From a virus, in the IMG/VR virus record IMGVR_UViG_3300030117_005698, positions 1 through 24,305 of that record: a stretch of 24,305 bases of DNA; one strand, given 5' to 3'. The notes under the pieces were generated by a model that ran no database searches, was not told where the DNA came from, and worked only from the letters and a program-made list of their open reading frames with translations. How positions within the stretch are numbered: position 1 is the stretch's first letter; each line of letters opens with the position of its first letter. This document shows, piece after piece, positions 2,434-17,777 of the stretch. Both the position numbers and the translations under genes were made by a program.

Positions 2434-2717
2434 TGTTACGACTGCTACGACATTGTAACGACCCCGTCGTTACATCGAGACAGCAGGTTCGACCGAAACA
2501 ATGAGCCAAAAATATCTATGTTACGACATGAAGTGTTCTATAGGTACGTGTGAGAGGGCCGATTCACTGACTTAACCGATAAATCGTAAATCTGACTTTC
2601 AGAACCCCCTCTCAACGCAGGGGTCGTAACATTGGAAAAAATCAGTCGAGAGCTCGCTTTGATCCTGCATTATCAGGTGCTACGACGGGTCGTAACATTG
2701 TCGTTACAGTCGTAGCA
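2434..2717. repeat. Two-fold symmetric array of ten 9-mer sites
   Basis: The 9-mer TG(T/C)(T/A)ACGAC occurs ten times. On + it is at 2434, 2443, 2454, 2519 and 2678; inverted copies start at 2466, 2623, 2689, 2700 and 2709. The four left sites (2434-2474) and four right sites (2678-2717) have the same internal layout in opposite orientation: two abutting copies, a 2-base gap, a third copy, a 2-3 base gap, and one inverted copy. Two single copies (2519-2527 +, 2623-2631 -) sit symmetrically between, and the whole is symmetric about position 2575. The centre carries TGAGAGGG (2551-2558) and its complement CCCTCTCA (2607-2614). The 390 bases between the flanking genes hold no supported gene. Candidates are a replication origin, a packaging site or a master operator. 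Confidence 0.85.
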
Positions 2718-4326: not shown

Positions 4327-4655
4327 AATCCGACCGCTTAGTTACTGCGTGCTGCGAAGCATATGACACTTTCTGGGGCGACCTGCACATGTGCAGACAG
4401 TGCGGTCGACCCAACCCTGAGATGATCGAGGGCTCTATCTGGGAGACTTGGAGACTCGGCGGTAACATTATCGTCAAGGGCTACATCGACCACAACGACA
4501 ACAGCGTTGTCTGGTTCCCCGAAGGCGCGACACTCGACGGGACGGCTGCGCTGGCTATCTTTCCTGACTACGACGAGGATTGGACCTGCCCCACTCTCTG
4601 GGCTGAGTGTGCGACACTTGAACAGGCCGACAAGATTATGAGGGATGAGCCATGA
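4323..4655 (+). CDS. Zinc-binding-like protein (110 aa), unknown
   Basis: The N-terminus carries a cysteine pair (C10, C11) and a CRQC pair near residues 24-27, a likely zinc ribbon. The rest is a mixed alpha/beta region rich in Trp with three further cysteines. GGAGGAAG precedes the ATG, which overlaps the upstream stop (ATGA), and the gene overlaps the next by 4 bases. I do not recognise the family. Confidence 0.6.
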   Translation: MKSDRLVTACCEAYDTFWGDLHMCRQCGRPNPEMIEGSIWETWRLGGNIIVKGYIDHNDNSVVWFPEGATLDGTAALAIFPDYDEDWTCPTLWAECATLEQADKIMRDEP

Positions 4656-5158
4656 CAACCGAATACATAGTACACAGCAGCAGCTACCTGACGGTCACGG
4701 GACTGGTCAAGTGGGCGCTCAACAGCGACGACACGTCTCTGACGCAGGACAGTCGAAACAAAGCAGCGAAGCTGCTCAAGCTGGCCAGCACCATACCGAG
4801 TCTGCCCGCGGGGGTTCTTGTGGAGATGGTCGAGGGCTCCGCGGATATTCGGTACTACCCGAACTCAGACTGGCAGCAAGATAGAATCGAAGTAGTTTCG
4901 GAATCAACTATGCACGAAGACGAAGTCGACGGTCCTGTGTTCCAGGCAGAAGAGCAGGAACTCGACGCGCTACGACTCCCGAAACGAATCGCCAACCTGT
5001 TGACCAACGCAGGGATTCGGTCTGTCGAGCAGCTACTTCGACACAGTAAAGAAGATCTACTGGAGATACCAAGACTCGGACCTGGCGCTGTAGAACTGAT
5101 TCGTTTGGCACTGGCTGAGACTTGGGGCGCAGACCTACGTAAGTCTCGGAGGAAGTGA
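4652..5158 (+). CDS. Protein with C-terminal RNAP alpha-CTD-like domain
   Basis: A 168-residue protein. Residues about 104-157 match the C-terminal domain of the RNA polymerase alpha subunit: LDALRLPKRIANLLTNAGI, then SVEQLLRHSKEDLLEIPRLG and a closing helix. Against the E. coli DNA-binding determinant, the equivalents of R265, N268 and G296 are kept (R112, N115, G143), while those of K298 and S299 are Gly and Ala. Residues 1-100 are not recognised and end in an acidic linker, as if a separate domain is tethered to the CTD. A role in steering host RNA polymerase or binding UP-like DNA is inferred; a plain helix-hairpin-helix DNA-binding role is the alternative. It is coupled to its neighbours in the + operon (4-base overlap upstream). 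Confidence 0.75.
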   Translation: MTTEYIVHSSSYLTVTGLVKWALNSDDTSLTQDSRNKAAKLLKLASTIPSLPAGVLVEMVEGSADIRYYPNSDWQQDRIEVVSESTMHEDEVDGPVFQAEEQELDALRLPKRIANLLTNAGIRSVEQLLRHSKEDLLEIPRLGPGAVELIRLALAETWGADLRKSRRK

Positions 5159-5159
5159 C

Positions 5160-5888
5160 ATGCGTATCGGTGAACTGTTTGCAGGTATCGGTGGTCTGGG
5201 TCTCGGGCTCGAGACTGCCCAAGTCGGTCATGTCGTGTGGCAGGTCGAACAAGACGAATACGCGAGCAAGGTGCTCGCAAAGCATTGGCCCCGAGCCAAG
5301 AGGTATACAAATGTCGAAGACGTCGGAGCCCACAACCTCGAGCCTGTTGACCTACTCTGCGGCGGGTTCCCCTGCCAAGACCTGTCCATCTCCAACCAGA
5401 AAGGACAAGGACTGGAAGGTCAGCGAAGCGGATTGTGGTTTGAGTTTGAGCGAATCGCCAACGAACTCAGACCCGAATGGATCGTCATCGAAAACGTCCA
5501 ACACACATGGAAGCGGTGGGTGCCCGTCGTGCGGCGCCGACTCCACGCCATCGGGTATGCCAGCGTGCCACTTCGACTGTCAGCCGCTGACGTGGGAGCG
5601 TGGCATCGAAGGAGACGAGTTTTCATACTTGCCCACGCCGACAGCGAGCAGCTACGGCAGTTGTCGCGGAGGTGGACAGGGACGCACGGGCAAATGGAGA
5701 AAGAGTCTATCGGGCCGATTCGGTGGACCCCACGCACCGAACCACCGCGAGTGGATGATGGGGTTCCCCATCGGGTGGACCGAAATCGATGTCTTGGAAA
5801 CGCGGTAGTACCTCAGTGCAGCTACTTCATTGGCAACTTAATCAAACAACTAAACCCAACTGTAAAGGAGAATCAACATGTCCAATAA
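5160..5888 (+). CDS. dcm: Cytosine-C5 DNA methyltransferase
   Basis: This 242-residue enzyme transfers a methyl group from S-adenosylmethionine to C5 of cytosine in DNA. Visible motifs are I (FAGIGG, 7-12), IV with the catalytic Cys (GGFPCQ, 68-73, C72), VI (ENV, 111-113), VIII (HRRRR, 149-153) and X (GNAVVP, 213-218). The stretch between VIII and X, where target recognition lies, is only about 60 residues, so it is a compact phage-type enzyme and the target site cannot be predicted. GGAGGAAG precedes the ATG. The gene probably protects phage DNA from host restriction together with the adenine methyltransferase at 17289. Oddity: the +1 frame over most of its length encodes another recognisable phage ORF. 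Confidence 0.92.
   Translation: MRIGELFAGIGGLGLGLETAQVGHVVWQVEQDEYASKVLAKHWPRAKRYTNVEDVGAHNLEPVDLLCGGFPCQDLSISNQKGQGLEGQRSGLWFEFERIANELRPEWIVIENVQHTWKRWVPVVRRRLHAIGYASVPLRLSAADVGAWHRRRRVFILAHADSEQLRQLSRRWTGTHGQMEKESIGPIRWTPRTEPPRVDDGVPHRVDRNRCLGNAVVPQCSYFIGNLIKQLNPTVKENQHVQ
5311..5808 (+). CDS. ORF nested in the methyltransferase gene, phage 'SPAKT' family
   Basis: The +1 frame of the methyltransferase gene is open from 5155 and, from the ATG at 5311, encodes 165 residues. It resembles phage proteins often annotated as DNA-methylase-like: SLLTYSAAGSPAKT (11-24), then SDPNGSSSKTSNT (53-65), SYLPTPTASSYGS (105-117), and REWMMGFPIGWTE (136-148). The last two match the 'LPTPTA-SYGS' and 'EWLMGFPIGWT' signatures I remember from stand-alone phage genes. 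The same DNA in frame 1 encodes genuine methyltransferase motifs IV to X. No ribosome site precedes 5311, and expression is unproven. It could be an overprinted gene, or the reading-frame shadow from which the stand-alone family arose by misannotation. Confidence 0.4.
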   Translation: MSKTSEPTTSSLLTYSAAGSPAKTCPSPTRKDKDWKVSEADCGLSLSESPTNSDPNGSSSKTSNTHGSGGCPSCGADSTPSGMPACHFDCQPLTWERGIEGDEFSYLPTPTASSYGSCRGGGQGRTGKWRKSLSGRFGGPHAPNHREWMMGFPIGWTEIDVLETR

Positions 5889-6935: not shown

Positions 6936-7119
6936 CGCTTCTGAGCCCGTAGCCGTCCTTGTACCAACCGTCTCCCTTGAGAGAGAAGGTGGTGCTGGAC
7001 ACGACACGTTGTGTCTTTACTTTGCATGGCTTGCAGGTAGGGGCCTCTGCTTTGTCCATGCGTTGAAGCATCTCTTGCTTCTTCTTACAGACTGGACACT
7101 GGTATTCGTAGATCGGCAT
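6931..7119 (-). CDS. FmdB-like zinc ribbon protein
   Basis: The 62-residue product starts MPIYEYQCPVC and has a second CKPC pair, then the S-T-T-F and KGDGWYKDGYG elements typical of the FmdB/CxxC-CxxC small zinc ribbon family. These proteins occur widely in bacteria and phages and were first proposed as regulators; in phages the role is unknown. The ATG at 7119 overlaps the upstream stop (ATGA), so it is coupled to the DUF927 gene. A longer in-frame start at 7233 lies inside that gene and is unlikely. Confidence 0.85.
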   Translation of the reverse strand: MPIYEYQCPVCKKKQEMLQRMDKAEAPTCKPCKVKTQRVVSSTTFSLKGDGWYKDGYGLRSE

Positions 7120-9182
7120 CAGTCTTCCAATGCCAGGTCTGCGGTGCTTCTCTTGATGCAGTAGCAACGAATCGACACACCATCCACGCGCACCACTCGA
7201 GTTCTGTTTCGACCGCGGCCACGGTACAACCACTCACGCTCGTCCCATCGAGTAAGGAGTTCTTCAGGGTGGTAGCCCAGTTCCTTGAGTACCTCACGGA
7301 TTGTGAGCGCCGTCACTGCAATGTAGTCCCAGTCGTCCTTGCCGCTCCAGCTACCGCCCCAACCTGAGTTGGGTACGCGTGCAATGCCCATCGATGACGT
7401 ATCGTGTCGACCGTAGAACTTGCTTTGGTTTGCAGCGCACCAACTGACCAAGTCCTGCATTGCAGCCAAGGGTCGGTCGGCGTCTTCACCTGCGGCAAAG
7501 GCACTCTCGATCAAGTGGGCGAAGGGATCTTCAACAGGCTTGGGCACACCCAACTGGTGAACAATACTGGCAGCCACTTCGAGTACAGCCAGGTGAGCCG
7601 CGTGTCTTCGAGCCACTGCTGTCTTAGCGATAGCCGCGTAGCCGTCCCTGGAGTTGCGGAAGACTTCACGGATGCGGTCGTAGTTCTTGTGGTTGCTGAC
7701 CAGGTATTCGATGATGCGCCGCCCCAGGTGACCGTAGGTGCCCGCCAAATCGACCTGTAGGTTCTCGCTCATCTTGCCACCTGCCTTGGGGTCATCGCCC
7801 AGCGGCTTGCCCTTCAGACTCAGCACACGAGCTCGAGTACCTGCGTCTTGACTGAACGAGGTCGCAGCACCTTCTCCAGAACTGATGAGGACCGTGCGCC
7901 AAGAATCAATCCGGCGAGTACCATCCGGGTTGCCGCGACCGCGGCCTTGACCCTGGCAGAAGTCGTAGATGACGTCGCGAATCATCCGGGGATGACGCAC
8001 GCGTTTTGTTTCGTCGAGGATGAGCGGCAGACTGTGCAAGTATCCGGTGGTGCGCTCAATCCAGACTTTGGTGGCGTCCCAGCTATACATGGCAGTGGGG
8101 TAGCTGTCAGATGGTTTACCCCATACAGACGCAGCCAATCGAAGCGCAGTAGTCTTACCGCCTGAAGTCTCACCACTGAAGTCCACGACGAAGCCAGGTA
8201 GCTTCAACACTTCGAGGATGGGTGCCGCGGCAGATGCGTAGATTGAGATCATCATGTACGGGTATTCGAGCACGTTCTCGATGGCTGAGCGCCAGTCGGC
8301 CCAACTACCCTTGGATTGCCAACCTTGTGAGATGGTCTCCAATCCTGGGGGTGCTGTCAATGCGAATGACGATGGCTTCTTGTCAATCGTGTAGTGTTTG
8401 TCTGGCAGAAGAAACCCACCGTCTGGCAGCCACCCCATGCGAGACGCCGACTGCACTGCGGGGAATCGATGGTTGTTCTCGGCTTCGAAGTCAGCCAGGT
8501 AAGAAACCACTTGTGAGATATGGTTGCTGCTGACTGGCGCCTCGAGGTCTGCCAGCGACATGATACGCGAGGTGTCCAAGATCGTCCGGCGATCGATGAC
8601 TCTCGAACACCATCCGGCGGGACCGCGCCAAACGACTTGTCGCTTCGCTTCTCCGGTGAGCACGTCGATGGTACGGCCCGAAATAAAGATGGGCGCAGGC
8701 GCCACGCGACTCCGGTTGATGTCACCATCCATACCCGCACTAAGGCGGTAGACGCCAGAGACGTCAATCTCATAACCTCGCGGCACACGTAGCATATCGA
8801 GTATGGACTTCTCCACGACGGTTGCAGGCGGTGCGCTGGCACCGAGTGCTGCGCTCATTGTGCAGAGCGCGAGCATTTCTTGTTCCATCATTGTCACTTG
8901 CGATTCAATGATCTTCTGCATGCGCTCGTCTGCGAGACGTTTGATGGCAGAACGAAGGTTCCTTGCCTTGTTTACTTGGCCGGGCACAGATTCAATGGTG
9001 GACAGCATTGTACTGATTCGTTCGCTGTCTCGCTTCCATTCGTCAGCCAAAGCATCGAGCACGTCAGGGTCTTGTACTCCTGCCCATGCTTTCTTTTTAG
9101 CTTCACTGTCTGCACTCTTCACTGCTTCGAGAAGCCCGCTCAAAATGTTTTCAGGTTCTTTTGTCACTCCCATGACGGTCAT
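7119..9182 (-). CDS. DUF927-family ATPase, probable replicative helicase
   Basis: A 687-residue protein with a DUF927 core: Walker A GETSGGKTT (337-345), Walker B LILDET (387-392) and the SSGE element (434-437) after a conserved Trp-Arg-Thr. DUF927 proteins are P-loop ATPases found in phages, plasmids and mobile elements, often fused or next to primase or helicase parts, and are thought to unwind or load at replication origins. The first 100 residues are helical and not recognised. GGAG lies 7 bases before the ATG. A terminator lies just upstream (9225-9262), so the gene may need read-through or its own weak promoter. No separate primase is visible in the window, so this protein may cover that step. 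Confidence 0.8.
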   Translation of the reverse strand: MTVMGVTKEPENILSGLLEAVKSADSEAKKKAWAGVQDPDVLDALADEWKRDSERISTMLSTIESVPGQVNKARNLRSAIKRLADERMQKIIESQVTMMEQEMLALCTMSAALGASAPPATVVEKSILDMLRVPRGYEIDVSGVYRLSAGMDGDINRSRVAPAPIFISGRTIDVLTGEAKRQVVWRGPAGWCSRVIDRRTILDTSRIMSLADLEAPVSSNHISQVVSYLADFEAENNHRFPAVQSASRMGWLPDGGFLLPDKHYTIDKKPSSFALTAPPGLETISQGWQSKGSWADWRSAIENVLEYPYMMISIYASAAAPILEVLKLPGFVVDFSGETSGGKTTALRLAASVWGKPSDSYPTAMYSWDATKVWIERTTGYLHSLPLILDETKRVRHPRMIRDVIYDFCQGQGRGRGNPDGTRRIDSWRTVLISSGEGAATSFSQDAGTRARVLSLKGKPLGDDPKAGGKMSENLQVDLAGTYGHLGRRIIEYLVSNHKNYDRIREVFRNSRDGYAAIAKTAVARRHAAHLAVLEVAASIVHQLGVPKPVEDPFAHLIESAFAAGEDADRPLAAMQDLVSWCAANQSKFYGRHDTSSMGIARVPNSGWGGSWSGKDDWDYIAVTALTIREVLKELGYHPEELLTRWDEREWLYRGRGRNRTRVVRVDGVSIRCYCIKRSTADLALED

Positions 9183-11370: not shown

Positions 11371-11796
11371 CTAAAAAACAACAGCTGACCAACCTTTCCA
11401 GTTGTCTTCGTTTGTGTCTTCCAAAGCAGTGATTTGTTTAAAGCGTCGTGTCTCGGGGCACCAACCAAACACATGTTTGTGTTCTTCGAGGAATCCTTTG
11501 ACGATCGAGGCCGTGGCGCGTCCCACTACTGGCTGTTCGCTTTCGACATCCATAGGTACTACAACTCCATGAAACATGGGTGTGCCGTCATAGTTACAAC
11601 CATGGGGTACATCATGGCACCATGCCTTCCAGCCTCCAAGAGCTGAGGCTCGAGATTGGAAATCGTCTCGACCGGGTACAACCTCCACCACCCAGTCAGG
11701 TAGGTTTAGTTGGTCGAGCAAAGTCTGGGACCACGAATCGATATCAGACACATCATCTTGACGGCTGTGCGCCAAGAACCATCGAGCTACATACAT
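11371..11796 (-). CDS. Unknown protein (141 aa)
   Basis: A 141-residue Trp-rich acidic protein that I do not recognise. The ATG overlaps the stop of the polymerase gene by one base, so it is translated with it. Segments DWVVEVVPGRDDFQSRA and PMFHGVVVPMDVESEQPVVG suggest an alpha/beta fold. Its place between the polymerase and the SMC-like ATPase suggests a replication accessory protein, by position only. Confidence 0.6.
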   Translation of the reverse strand: MYVARWFLAHSRQDDVSDIDSWSQTLLDQLNLPDWVVEVVPGRDDFQSRASALGGWKAWCHDVPHGCNYDGTPMFHGVVVPMDVESEQPVVGRATASIVKGFLEEHKHVFGWCPETRRFKQITALEDTNEDNWKGWSAVVF

Positions 11797-14555
11797 TAGA
11801 CTTCCTTTAAGTTTTTGCCGATGTCGGCTTCAGACGTGAGCACTACTTCCCATCCAGGCACAGTCAGAGTCATGCACTCTTCTACTTGCTGCCGCCACTT
11901 CTCCAACTGCTCTTCGCCTTCGTTGGGGACTTCGATGCAGATACTGTCGTGGCATTGGTGGATGAGACCTGTTCCTGGGCCAGCAAACCCAAACGGGAAC
12001 GCAGTGATAATTTCTTGTTCTGCCAATCGCATGAGTGAACTTTCAGCGGCCAGCACAGGGAAGTTGACGACTTCATTTTTCTTTCCATCAGACAAACTTC
12101 CAGATCGCCGACCCAGGACAGGTTCTTCCATATACCCTTGTTCTCTGTATATTTCGAGCATTCGAGTCCAGGCGTCCATCCATTCAGGTTCTGCTTCTAA
12201 CCATTGTTGGTGAAAATGTCGGACTTCTCTGGGCTCGATATCCAGGTACGGAAGTTTGCCGTCGTTTGTCTCTGTTGAGGTCAGAACTTGCCAAACTGTG
12301 CTGGGGTCTGCCCAGTAGATAGATGCGTAGCGAAACGTCTTCATGACATCCCGCATGGCCTTGGCTTGTCCGCCTATTGGTTTCTTGAGAAGGCTAAACC
12401 CATCTGGTCCCCAGCCGTCGGCATGTTTGAACTTGCTGCCAAAGATGTCATAGGCCAGTAGATTGTGTGGGTCTTTGTTCTCTACAAAGCATTCAAGCAG
12501 ACGCGGTATCTGCCAGAAACTTGCAGTGATTCGTAGGTGAGCTTGGTCTAAGTCAGCCCCGATGTAGGCTCGACCTGGTGGTGCGGCGAAGATACTCTTG
12601 AGCCTGCCTTGTCCTTTTCGGTTTCCGATGTTCTGTAGATTCGGGCCACTGGAGCTCAATCGACCGACACTGGTAGTGTGGGCGTTCCAGTTGCTGCGGA
12701 CACGACCGTCTTGCCATACCAGACCTTTCTTGGGGTCGACGTCTCTTCTCTGCATAGGCAAGAGGACTGTGCCGAGTATCTTGTTCTTTTCTCGACGGTA
12801 TAGACGTAGTTCATAGATGAAGGCTTTCTGCGCTTTCGACAGACCAGGGTTGGACAGATGACCTCGAAGTACAGCATCGCCTGTGCCGGGTAGTCCTGAC
12901 TCGGTAAAAAACTCTCGAGAATCCATGTGTGGTGGGATTGACAGCTTCCATTTGTTGTAGAAGAGATTCCGTATTTGATCTGCCGAGCCTGGGTTGAAGC
13001 CGTCATCGTTGACTGACTTCATGTCCAGTTTCTTCAAACCGATGTCTCGTGCCATCTCATCCAGCTTCTTTCGTCTCTTGTCGATACTGTTGGTGTATTC
13101 AATCTCGAGACCCATGCGGATCTTCTGGTCCACCCACACACCGTTGCGGTGCATCTCGAGACACATCTCTTGAGTCTTATGGTCTACCTCGAACAGGTTC
13201 CAAGGTTTATCTTCACCCCACCCACGAGGCTTGAACTCTTGGCTCAAGGGTCGGAAGGCACCTGCGTTTGATGAGGCATCGATGAGCGGTACAACGATTC
13301 TGGCATTGACCACTGAATCAACAATGTTGTAGCGCAACAACTCATCGTCGTCTGTTGCACCGGTTGCAATCTTCACACCTTTCTCGGATGTCTCCCAGCG
13401 CTCTACGTCTGTAAGGATGGATCCGATTGTCTTCAGTCCTTTGGGTAGGTCTGGTGCGCGGAACCGTGTAGGGAAGAGTGTATCCACCAGCGGGGCTGGA
13501 GTGACGCCAAGCCAGCGCTCGATGACTAAGCGGTCGAAGAACCCGGCATTGTGTCCGACCCATACTCGACCATCAGTCATTGCCGTCATGAGTATCTGCT
13601 TGATCGCGTCTTCGTCTTCTGGAGAGTAGAACCGAGTGCTACCGTCTGCTGATAAGATGCTGACACCGACGGCTTGTGAGACGGTTGCGATCTCTGCCCG
13701 TGCAGCTTTGCCCATCTTATCCAGGTCGGGTGTTGCAATCGCAATCGTGCGTAGCTTGCACGACATCGGGTCTTTCCCGTCGGTCTCAACGTCATATGAC
13801 CAGAAAGGGGCTGCCTGGCTCAACCAAGCTACAAGCTCATCGGGTGTGGGTCTCCACAAGATCTCAGGGTCTTGCCATCGAAGTCTGTTCTCGAACCAGC
13901 GAAACCCTTTCGCCAAGTCTGAATGAAGCACGCTGCGCCAACTGGGTGAACGCGCAACAAAAGAAGGGTGAAGCGTTGGCATCACCATATGAGCGCCGCC
14001 GCTGGGTGTTTGACACCATTCTTCGTCTACCCAAACAGGACCGCCTCTGGACGCATGAATCGATGCGCTCGTGCCTGTCAGTGCTTGTGTTGCAGTCTTA
14101 CCGAGAGTGATGATGTGTCGATACTCGGACGCACGATTCAACAACCGCGGACGGCAGCATGTAGCTGGATGCGGGATAGGGTCTTTGCCTTCTTTGCTTC
14201 GTCGTCGATTGATTTTGTCTAACTTCTTTTCCATACGAGCCCACGCGCCGGATGGTTGACCGGGGGGCTTACATAGGATGACGTTTGTTAGATCGATATC
14301 AGGCCGTTTCTTTCCAATAGCAAGCAGGGCATTGCCCCATTCACTGCCTGAACGGCCTATGAGGGGTCGACCTCTCGCGACCTCCTCAAGACCGGGAGAT
14401 TCAACTACAGCTAAGGTTGATGCTCCGTCGTGTATCTCAGGCGGTACGGGTGACCATTCGTCGCTTGCAAGGTCTCCACCTTTCCTGAGTGGGCAAATGT
14501 CACATCGTGCGCCATGATGTTGAGGGTCATAGCGTTTATTGAGAGGTTGCAACAT
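11796..14555 (-). CDS. Fusion of uracil-DNA-glycosylase-like domain, 3'-5' exonuclease and family A DNA polymerase
   Basis: The phage replicative polymerase, 919 residues. The ATG at 14555 has AAGGAG 4 bases upstream; the in-frame ATG at 14591 is worse placed. Residues 1-210 resemble Fe-S (family 4/5) uracil glycosylases: CDIC (C18, C21), C95, C133/C134, a VESPG...GRPLIGRSG segment and HPS (196-198). Residues about 250-430 are a DnaQ-like proofreading exonuclease (D255, E257, N336, D358, D413). The rest is PolA: motif A DLDQAHLR (668-675), motif B R735/K739/Y743, motif C HDS (869-871). Y743 matches the T7 polymerase Tyr rather than E. coli Phe762. Two residues are odd: His replaces the steric-gate Glu of motif A, and Ser the Glu of HDE. 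SPO1-type phages have a comparable fusion. It is part of the - strand replication operon. Confidence 0.93.
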   Translation of the reverse strand: MLQPLNKRYDPQHHGARCDICPLRKGGDLASDEWSPVPPEIHDGASTLAVVESPGLEEVARGRPLIGRSGSEWGNALLAIGKKRPDIDLTNVILCKPPGQPSGAWARMEKKLDKINRRRSKEGKDPIPHPATCCRPRLLNRASEYRHIITLGKTATQALTGTSASIHASRGGPVWVDEEWCQTPSGGAHMVMPTLHPSFVARSPSWRSVLHSDLAKGFRWFENRLRWQDPEILWRPTPDELVAWLSQAAPFWSYDVETDGKDPMSCKLRTIAIATPDLDKMGKAARAEIATVSQAVGVSILSADGSTRFYSPEDEDAIKQILMTAMTDGRVWVGHNAGFFDRLVIERWLGVTPAPLVDTLFPTRFRAPDLPKGLKTIGSILTDVERWETSEKGVKIATGATDDDELLRYNIVDSVVNARIVVPLIDASSNAGAFRPLSQEFKPRGWGEDKPWNLFEVDHKTQEMCLEMHRNGVWVDQKIRMGLEIEYTNSIDKRRKKLDEMARDIGLKKLDMKSVNDDGFNPGSADQIRNLFYNKWKLSIPPHMDSREFFTESGLPGTGDAVLRGHLSNPGLSKAQKAFIYELRLYRREKNKILGTVLLPMQRRDVDPKKGLVWQDGRVRSNWNAHTTSVGRLSSSGPNLQNIGNRKGQGRLKSIFAAPPGRAYIGADLDQAHLRITASFWQIPRLLECFVENKDPHNLLAYDIFGSKFKHADGWGPDGFSLLKKPIGGQAKAMRDVMKTFRYASIYWADPSTVWQVLTSTETNDGKLPYLDIEPREVRHFHQQWLEAEPEWMDAWTRMLEIYREQGYMEEPVLGRRSGSLSDGKKNEVVNFPVLAAESSLMRLAEQEIITAFPFGFAGPGTGLIHQCHDSICIEVPNEGEEQLEKWRQQVEECMTLTVPGWEVVLTSEADIGKNLKEV

Positions 14556-14612
14556 TACACTCCTTAAAGGGTGAGGCATCTGTAAAGCCATGCCTCCCTG
14601 CGCTCCTCAAGA

Positions 14613-17288: not shown

Positions 17289-17777
17289 CTATGGTCGCTC
17301 AAGCGTGAGCATTCGGGGTGTTGTACCTTCATTGTCGGCTCCGTTGAACACAAGAACCGTAGATGGCGCAGGTGCCGCCCCCGCAGGCTGACCGCCTTTG
17401 TTAAATCGTAAACGACCTTTGATAAAGAATATGTATTGCGCTTTCATTGCAGCGTCATGCCACCAACGTGTATCTGTTCGAGCAAACACCAACACAACAA
17501 CGGTTTTACCCAAGGCTGCCTGCTCCGCGGCTTTAGCTACAAAGGCACCGACGGCTCTACCGTATGGTGGGTTCAGCCATATAGATTCTCCCGGCCATTC
17601 CGGCATACTCAAAGCGTCGGCTTCTTTGTCGAGAAACACATCGCATAAAGCGTTGTCCGATGATGCAGCAGCGTCGCAGTCAAAGTTGAACCACTCGTTG
17701 AGTGTGTCAAACAACCACGAGGGAGTCTCCCAAGCTTGGTGCTTTGAACTGAATAGTCCGTCGGCGGTCCACTTCAT
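17289..17777 (-). CDS. dam: Phage DNA N6-adenine methyltransferase
   Basis: The 162-residue product matches the phage Dam family: WETPSWLFDTL (16-26), FNFDCDAAASSDNALC (30-45), the catalytic NPPY (69-72) in place of DPPY, and FIKGRLRF near residue 120. These enzymes put a methyl group on N6 of adenine using S-adenosylmethionine, and shield phage DNA from host restriction. The family is normally about this size, so it appears complete. The ATG overlaps the stop of the upstream helicase gene by 4 bases. It is the second DNA methyltransferase in the window. The target site cannot be read from the sequence. Confidence 0.9.
   Translation of the reverse strand: MKWTADGLFSSKHQAWETPSWLFDTLNEWFNFDCDAAASSDNALCDVFLDKEADALSMPEWPGESIWLNPPYGRAVGAFVAKAAEQAALGKTVVVLVFARTDTRWWHDAAMKAQYIFFIKGRLRFNKGGQPAGAAPAPSTVLVFNGADNEGTTPRMLTLERP

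Follow-up and report, generated by a model that had tools for sequence, protein, structure and literature searches.

The closest described counterparts of the locus analysed here are the replication origins of SaPI and PICI elements. SaPI Rep uses its C-terminal domain to recognise an iteron origin that immediately follows the rep gene (PMC7581432), and PICI origins consist of two iteron sets on either side of an AT-rich region (PMC6092414). SaPI origins have been likened to that of SV40, with repeats in opposite orientation recruiting two head-to-head helicase hexamers (PMC9894130). For SCCmec Cch2, the C-terminal domain binds direct repeats downstream of its own operon, and the protein works with a family-A polymerase (PMC7581432).

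The stretch of DNA that we analysed, the window, is a 24,305-base IMG/VR virus record. It contains an array of 9-bp iterons in two mirrored arms, and we consider it very probable that this array is the replication origin of the phage, with iterons that would be bound by the C-terminal HTH_56 domain of a DUF927 helicase and two facing assemblies that would start bidirectional copying. Four lines of evidence lead to this prediction: the symmetry of the sites, the conserved geometry of such arrays, their linkage to DUF927 genes, and a helicase that is homologous to both SaPIbov1 Rep and Cch. The kind of origin is already known. What is new is its detached, phage-borne form and a common spacing rule; a limited literature search returned no description of the phage-borne form, the separation from the initiator gene or the spacing rule.

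A mirrored array of ten sites

The motif TGYWACGAC has ten exact matches in the 24,305 bases, all of them inside 284 bp (2434–2717). The expectation from shuffled sequence is 0.85, and a count of ten was reached in none of 100 shuffles. A search of 2400–2750 for sites with one mismatch returned none. About position 2575.5 the sites fall into five mirror pairs; in every pair the two members lie on opposite strands and agree within 1 bp. When ten sites were placed at random 20,000 times, five such pairs never arose. The sites, strands and coordinates given by an earlier sequence-only reading of this DNA are exact, and the two-fold symmetry that it described is confirmed. The array and the genes discussed with it are as follows.

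1894–2409, − strand: TerS-like (phBC6A51-like) HTH gene, from PHROGs and fold; adjoins the array
2434–2474: left arm, with + iterons at 2434, 2443 and 2454 and then a − iteron at 2466; exact matches, positions kept in the related contig L004
2519–2527, + strand: left inner iteron, facing the centre; exact match, inner role from the comparison of 43 arrays
2528–2622: central segment, proposed melting region, its function inferred
2623–2631, − strand: right inner iteron, facing the centre and 104 bp from its left counterpart; exact match, role from the array comparison
2678–2717: right arm, with a + iteron at 2678 followed by − iterons at 2689, 2700 and 2709, mirroring the left arm
2753–2781, + strand: sigma-70-like promoter match before the rightward operon; consensus match only
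7119–9182, − strand: MCM-like helicase with DUF927 and HTH_56 (Cch winged-helix), proposed initiator; Pfam, and matches to 8tch and 5dgk in both sequence and fold
11796–14591, − strand: family-A DNA polymerase, from Pfam and PHROGs; putative replication role

The array lies between divergent genes. On its left the HTH gene starts at 2409, 25 bp away, and on its right is a rightward operon that starts near 2813, with the promoter-like match (2753–2781) 36 bp from the array; both distances hold as previously reported, the promoter being a consensus match only. The AT content of the central segment is 54%, only a slight excess over the 47% of the whole window. A DNA hairpin in the array centre gave an unconvincing z of −2.0, and cumulative GC skew in long contigs does not turn clearly at the array, running mostly in one direction through it.

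Conservation of the sites was seen in L004, a 70-kb contig whose HTH protein is 95% identical to that of the window. All ten sites are present in the same layout, and several of their letters differ, always within the Y/W degeneracy. A layout that is kept while letters change in this way is what would be expected of functional sites. When viral contigs were scanned for the exact two-site pattern, at least eight sites were found only in L004/L014 and in L015, and the other matches were mostly small clusters. L015 is a distant, 42-kb record, in which an eight-site TGTTACGAC array lies just 3' of a primase-helicase gene with CHC2 zinc-finger, DUF927 and HTH_56 domains; no relative of the HTH protein was found in this record.

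The DUF927 helicase and the arrays beside its genes

The product of 7119–9182 is homologous to SaPIbov1 Rep and to SCCmec Cch. Its Pfam matches (PF06048, E 2e-44; PF18662, E 7e-8) are both over the cut-off, and its sequence matches SaPIbov1 Rep (8tch) at E 1.2e-35, with the C-terminal part included, as well as SCCmec Cch (5dgk). An AlphaFold2 model with a mean pLDDT of 81 matches the folds of 8tch (Z 30.8) and 5dgk (Z 28.3), and residues 565–687 of the model match TcpK (Z 12.5, rmsd 2.4), a relaxosome protein whose structure was solved bound to oriT DNA.

Our search for DUF927 relatives yielded 73 loci. All 12 long DUF927-bearing contigs of the window's phage group contain the array, one array each. 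We located the densest two-strand repeat cluster at 32 distant DUF927 loci (24–34% identity). In 25 of them it begins no more than ~190 bp 3' of the stop codon of DUF927, usually 2–15 bp past it, and in the remaining seven it lies 1.6–4.5 kb 3' of the stop. At L073 and L094 a stray match heads the list of sites; the arrays themselves follow the stop by 20 and 5 bp, respectively. THSA-485A, FP_Epona, AC844P1 and the staphylococcal island PT1028, the last examined as a 2.8-kb rep-origin stretch, have an array 2–26 bp after the DUF927 stop. By the same repeat-cluster method, Roseburia phage Jekyll, phiRg507T2_3 and vB_Pae_U10 have no clear array beside DUF927. No two-strand cluster of at least six was present in the controls, for which we used shuffled loci, stretches lacking DUF927, and regions of the same genomes outside any array.

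Clusters of GCTGCACC repeats before DUF927 in several relatives were also considered as arrays and rejected; we judged them to be coding, for alanine, proline and lysine repeats. A histone-H1-like protein with Ala/Pro/Lys-rich repeats, apparently on the opposite strand, lies before DUF927 in L033 (6680–6812), L040 (9580–9755) and L052 (9560–9710).

To compare geometries, 43 arrays were set in one orientation and centred, the inner sites facing inward by the centring rule; the arrays of G019, G023, L072 and L092 failed the automatic centre rule. The median inner gap of the 43 arrays is 107 bp. Of the sites that lie 38–60 bp outward, 68 face outward and three inward; of those at 60–106 bp, 108 face inward and 52 outward. 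Many of these arrays come from related phages, forming 12 independent clusters at 60% identity. With one array per cluster (n = 12), the 38–60 bp shell has 14 outward sites vs. two (p = 0.004), and the region beyond 60 bp has 31 inward vs. 13 (p = 0.01). The iteron consensus drifts among arrays (TGTTACGAC, TGTTACACC, GTTTCACCT, ATAGTTCCC, TATAGTCCA and others), so that orientation and spacing are largely kept while the iteron sequence changes. The AT content of the centre is above the locus mean in 42 of the 43 arrays (mean 68% vs. 49%).

On balance we lean towards the view that a single origin grammar serves the DUF927 MCM-like initiators of phages and islands alike: an inward-facing inner pair ~100–115 bp apart, an outward site ~40–60 bp beyond it, and then mostly inward tandem sites 9–12 bp apart. 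Under such a grammar, spacing and orientation would be kept as sequence drifts, the origin could leave the initiator gene, and the pattern may encode the loading of two opposed helicase rings.

The HTH gene and other possible roles of the array

The gene nearest to the array encodes a protein that resembles terminase small subunits in PHROGs. Its best fold matches are phBC6A51 and the Sf6 TerS (gp1), both weak, from a model whose pLDDT of 61 is too poor for a firm call. Relatives were seen in five viral contigs in a first scan, and none was found in 50,697 phage records at E 0.01, a set that includes the array-bearing FP_Epona and THSA-485A. The sequence-only reading had named a looped master operator and a pac/cos site recognised by this protein as possible roles of the array, and had pointed to the array's place beside the HTH gene as something to look for in relatives. 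That place is kept in about eight of them, with the array directly before the HTH gene in G002, G004, G005, G016, G017, G023, G026 and G027, but in five others the two are kilobases apart: by 2.7 kb in G025, by about 9 and 11 kb in G003 and G022, and at opposite contig ends in G018 and G019.

These arrangements bear on the idea that the array is bound by the TerS-like HTH protein, which would control the divergent operon as well as its own gene, perhaps through looping. A position 25 bp from the HTH gene and between divergent genes is a usual place for an operator, and the adjacency in about eight relatives is in keeping with it. However, the array has parted from the HTH gene in the five relatives just named, the HTH genes of L030–L042 have no array in front, and phages without the HTH family, complete genomes among them, have the same kind of array beside DUF927; we regard an operator read by this protein as very unlikely. 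Less likely still is a pac/cos packaging site recognised by the same protein, which its TerS-like character in PHROGs and, weakly, by fold (phBC6A51, Sf6 gp1) would favour. In most long relatives neither the array nor the HTH gene adjoins TerL, which lies about 10–17 kb from the array (TerL was located by PHROG 2; PF03237 gave no terminase), and in distant phages that are devoid of the HTH family the arrays with this geometry come after the DUF927 gene and not after terminase genes. Co-variation of the iterons with HTH_56 or with the TerS-like HTH was non-discriminating, as both proteins diverge together.

A different proposal supplements the origin reading and does not replace it: the helicase-bound origin might also repress the flanking genes through outer iterons that overlap their promoters. 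Just ahead of the HTH start is a TATACT box, and the region upstream of this box extends into the outermost left site; on the − strand, a TTGACA-18-GACAAT match extends into the right arm. Both promoters are matches to a consensus alone, though, and the array lies away from the HTH gene in G003, G022 and G025; we hold such dual use to be possible but doubtful.

Comparison with known origins and a proposed mechanism

Iterons bound by a phage initiator are found in lambdoid phage origins, where the initiator is the O protein. The lambda initiator is not a helicase, and its iterons form one tandem set; in the window, by contrast, a helicase is the proposed initiator, and the iterons are divided between two arms that mirror each other.

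The likeness to SaPI/PICI origins of the SaPIbov1 class, with their DUF927-type Rep, is closer. Both have a homologous initiator helicase and, on either side of a centre, short iterons arranged as two oppositely oriented arms. The order of sites in the window (three rightward sites 9 and 11 bp apart, one leftward and one rightward, a centre of 104 bp, then one leftward, one rightward and three leftward) is near-identical to that of PT1028 (three rightward sites 9 and 11 bp apart, one leftward and two rightward, a centre of 98 bp, then one leftward, one rightward and one leftward). The sequence-only reading knew of no named element with this layout, which does not stand given that SaPI/PICI origins are alike in kind (PMC6092414, PMC9894130) and that the PT1028 pattern is so similar. 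The array of the window differs from these origins in being borne by a phage of ~70 kb (size judged from relatives), in its iteron sequence and in a centre that is only slightly AT-rich. It also lies 4.4 kb 3' of the stop codon of the initiator gene, not directly behind the gene; we take the direct adjacency described in PMC7581432 to be typical of SaPI/PICI origins, not defining. Because it is not directly downstream of the rep gene, we describe the array as a variant of the SaPI/PICI type.

SCCmec Cch has the DUF927 fold (5dgk), as does the helicase of the window, while Cch2, for which no more than three iterons were found, is of a different helicase family. The likeness to SV40 and papillomavirus origins, where T-antigen and E1 form double hexamers, is functional only, in that mirror sites seat two opposed rings (PMC9894130). 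The recognition domain of T-antigen and E1 is N-terminal (PMC7581432), in contrast to the C-terminal domain proposed for the helicase of the window, and we claim no homology between the origins.

From homology and geometry we infer iteron binding by the DUF927 protein, loading of a double ring, melting and origin activity. The HTH_56 winged-helix C-terminal domain of the helicase would bind the 9-bp iterons. Since the arms are mirror images, they would seat two helicase assemblies face to face across the ~100-bp centre; the rings would melt this centre and then travel apart in opposite directions, whereupon the phage's family-A polymerase and other replication proteins would begin bidirectional copying. 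The family-A polymerase (11796–14591) is a probable partner in replication, and other replication and recombination genes are also encoded in the window. The distance of 4.4 kb to the helicase gene, the 54% AT of the centre and the want of a clear GC-skew turn count against an origin, as do the three phages in which DUF927 has no clear array beside it, the four arrays that failed the centre rule and the relatedness of many of the arrays. A replication origin was among the roles that the sequence-only reading had considered possible, and it is this one that the linkage of arrays to DUF927, the shared geometry and the homology to Rep and Cch strongly support.

For DUF927 phages, both uncultivated and cultivated, a replication origin is hereby predicted and a candidate initiator named. 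More than 40 arrays with varied iterons and a largely kept geometry offer material for testing the opposed placement of self-loading MCM-like helicases, and the question of how an opposed pair is placed is common to viral (T-antigen, E1) and archaeal/eukaryotic MCM initiation.

Several other features of the window and its relatives were observed. The family-A polymerase (11796–14591, − strand) has an N-terminal uracil-DNA-glycosylase-like domain (PF03167 in addition to PF00476). A small protein encoded at 4652–5158 (+ strand) matches the RNA polymerase alpha C-terminal domain/helix-hairpin-helix family (PF03118, E 1e-8). A C5-cytosine methylase gene lies at 5160–5888 (+ strand) and a Dam-type adenine methylase gene at 17289–17777 (− strand). 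A second cluster, of ACCTCGAG-type sites, is located between divergent genes at 1–370, where it is clipped by the start of the window, and five ACCTCGAG-type copies, on both strands, are present in L003 at 2150–2390.
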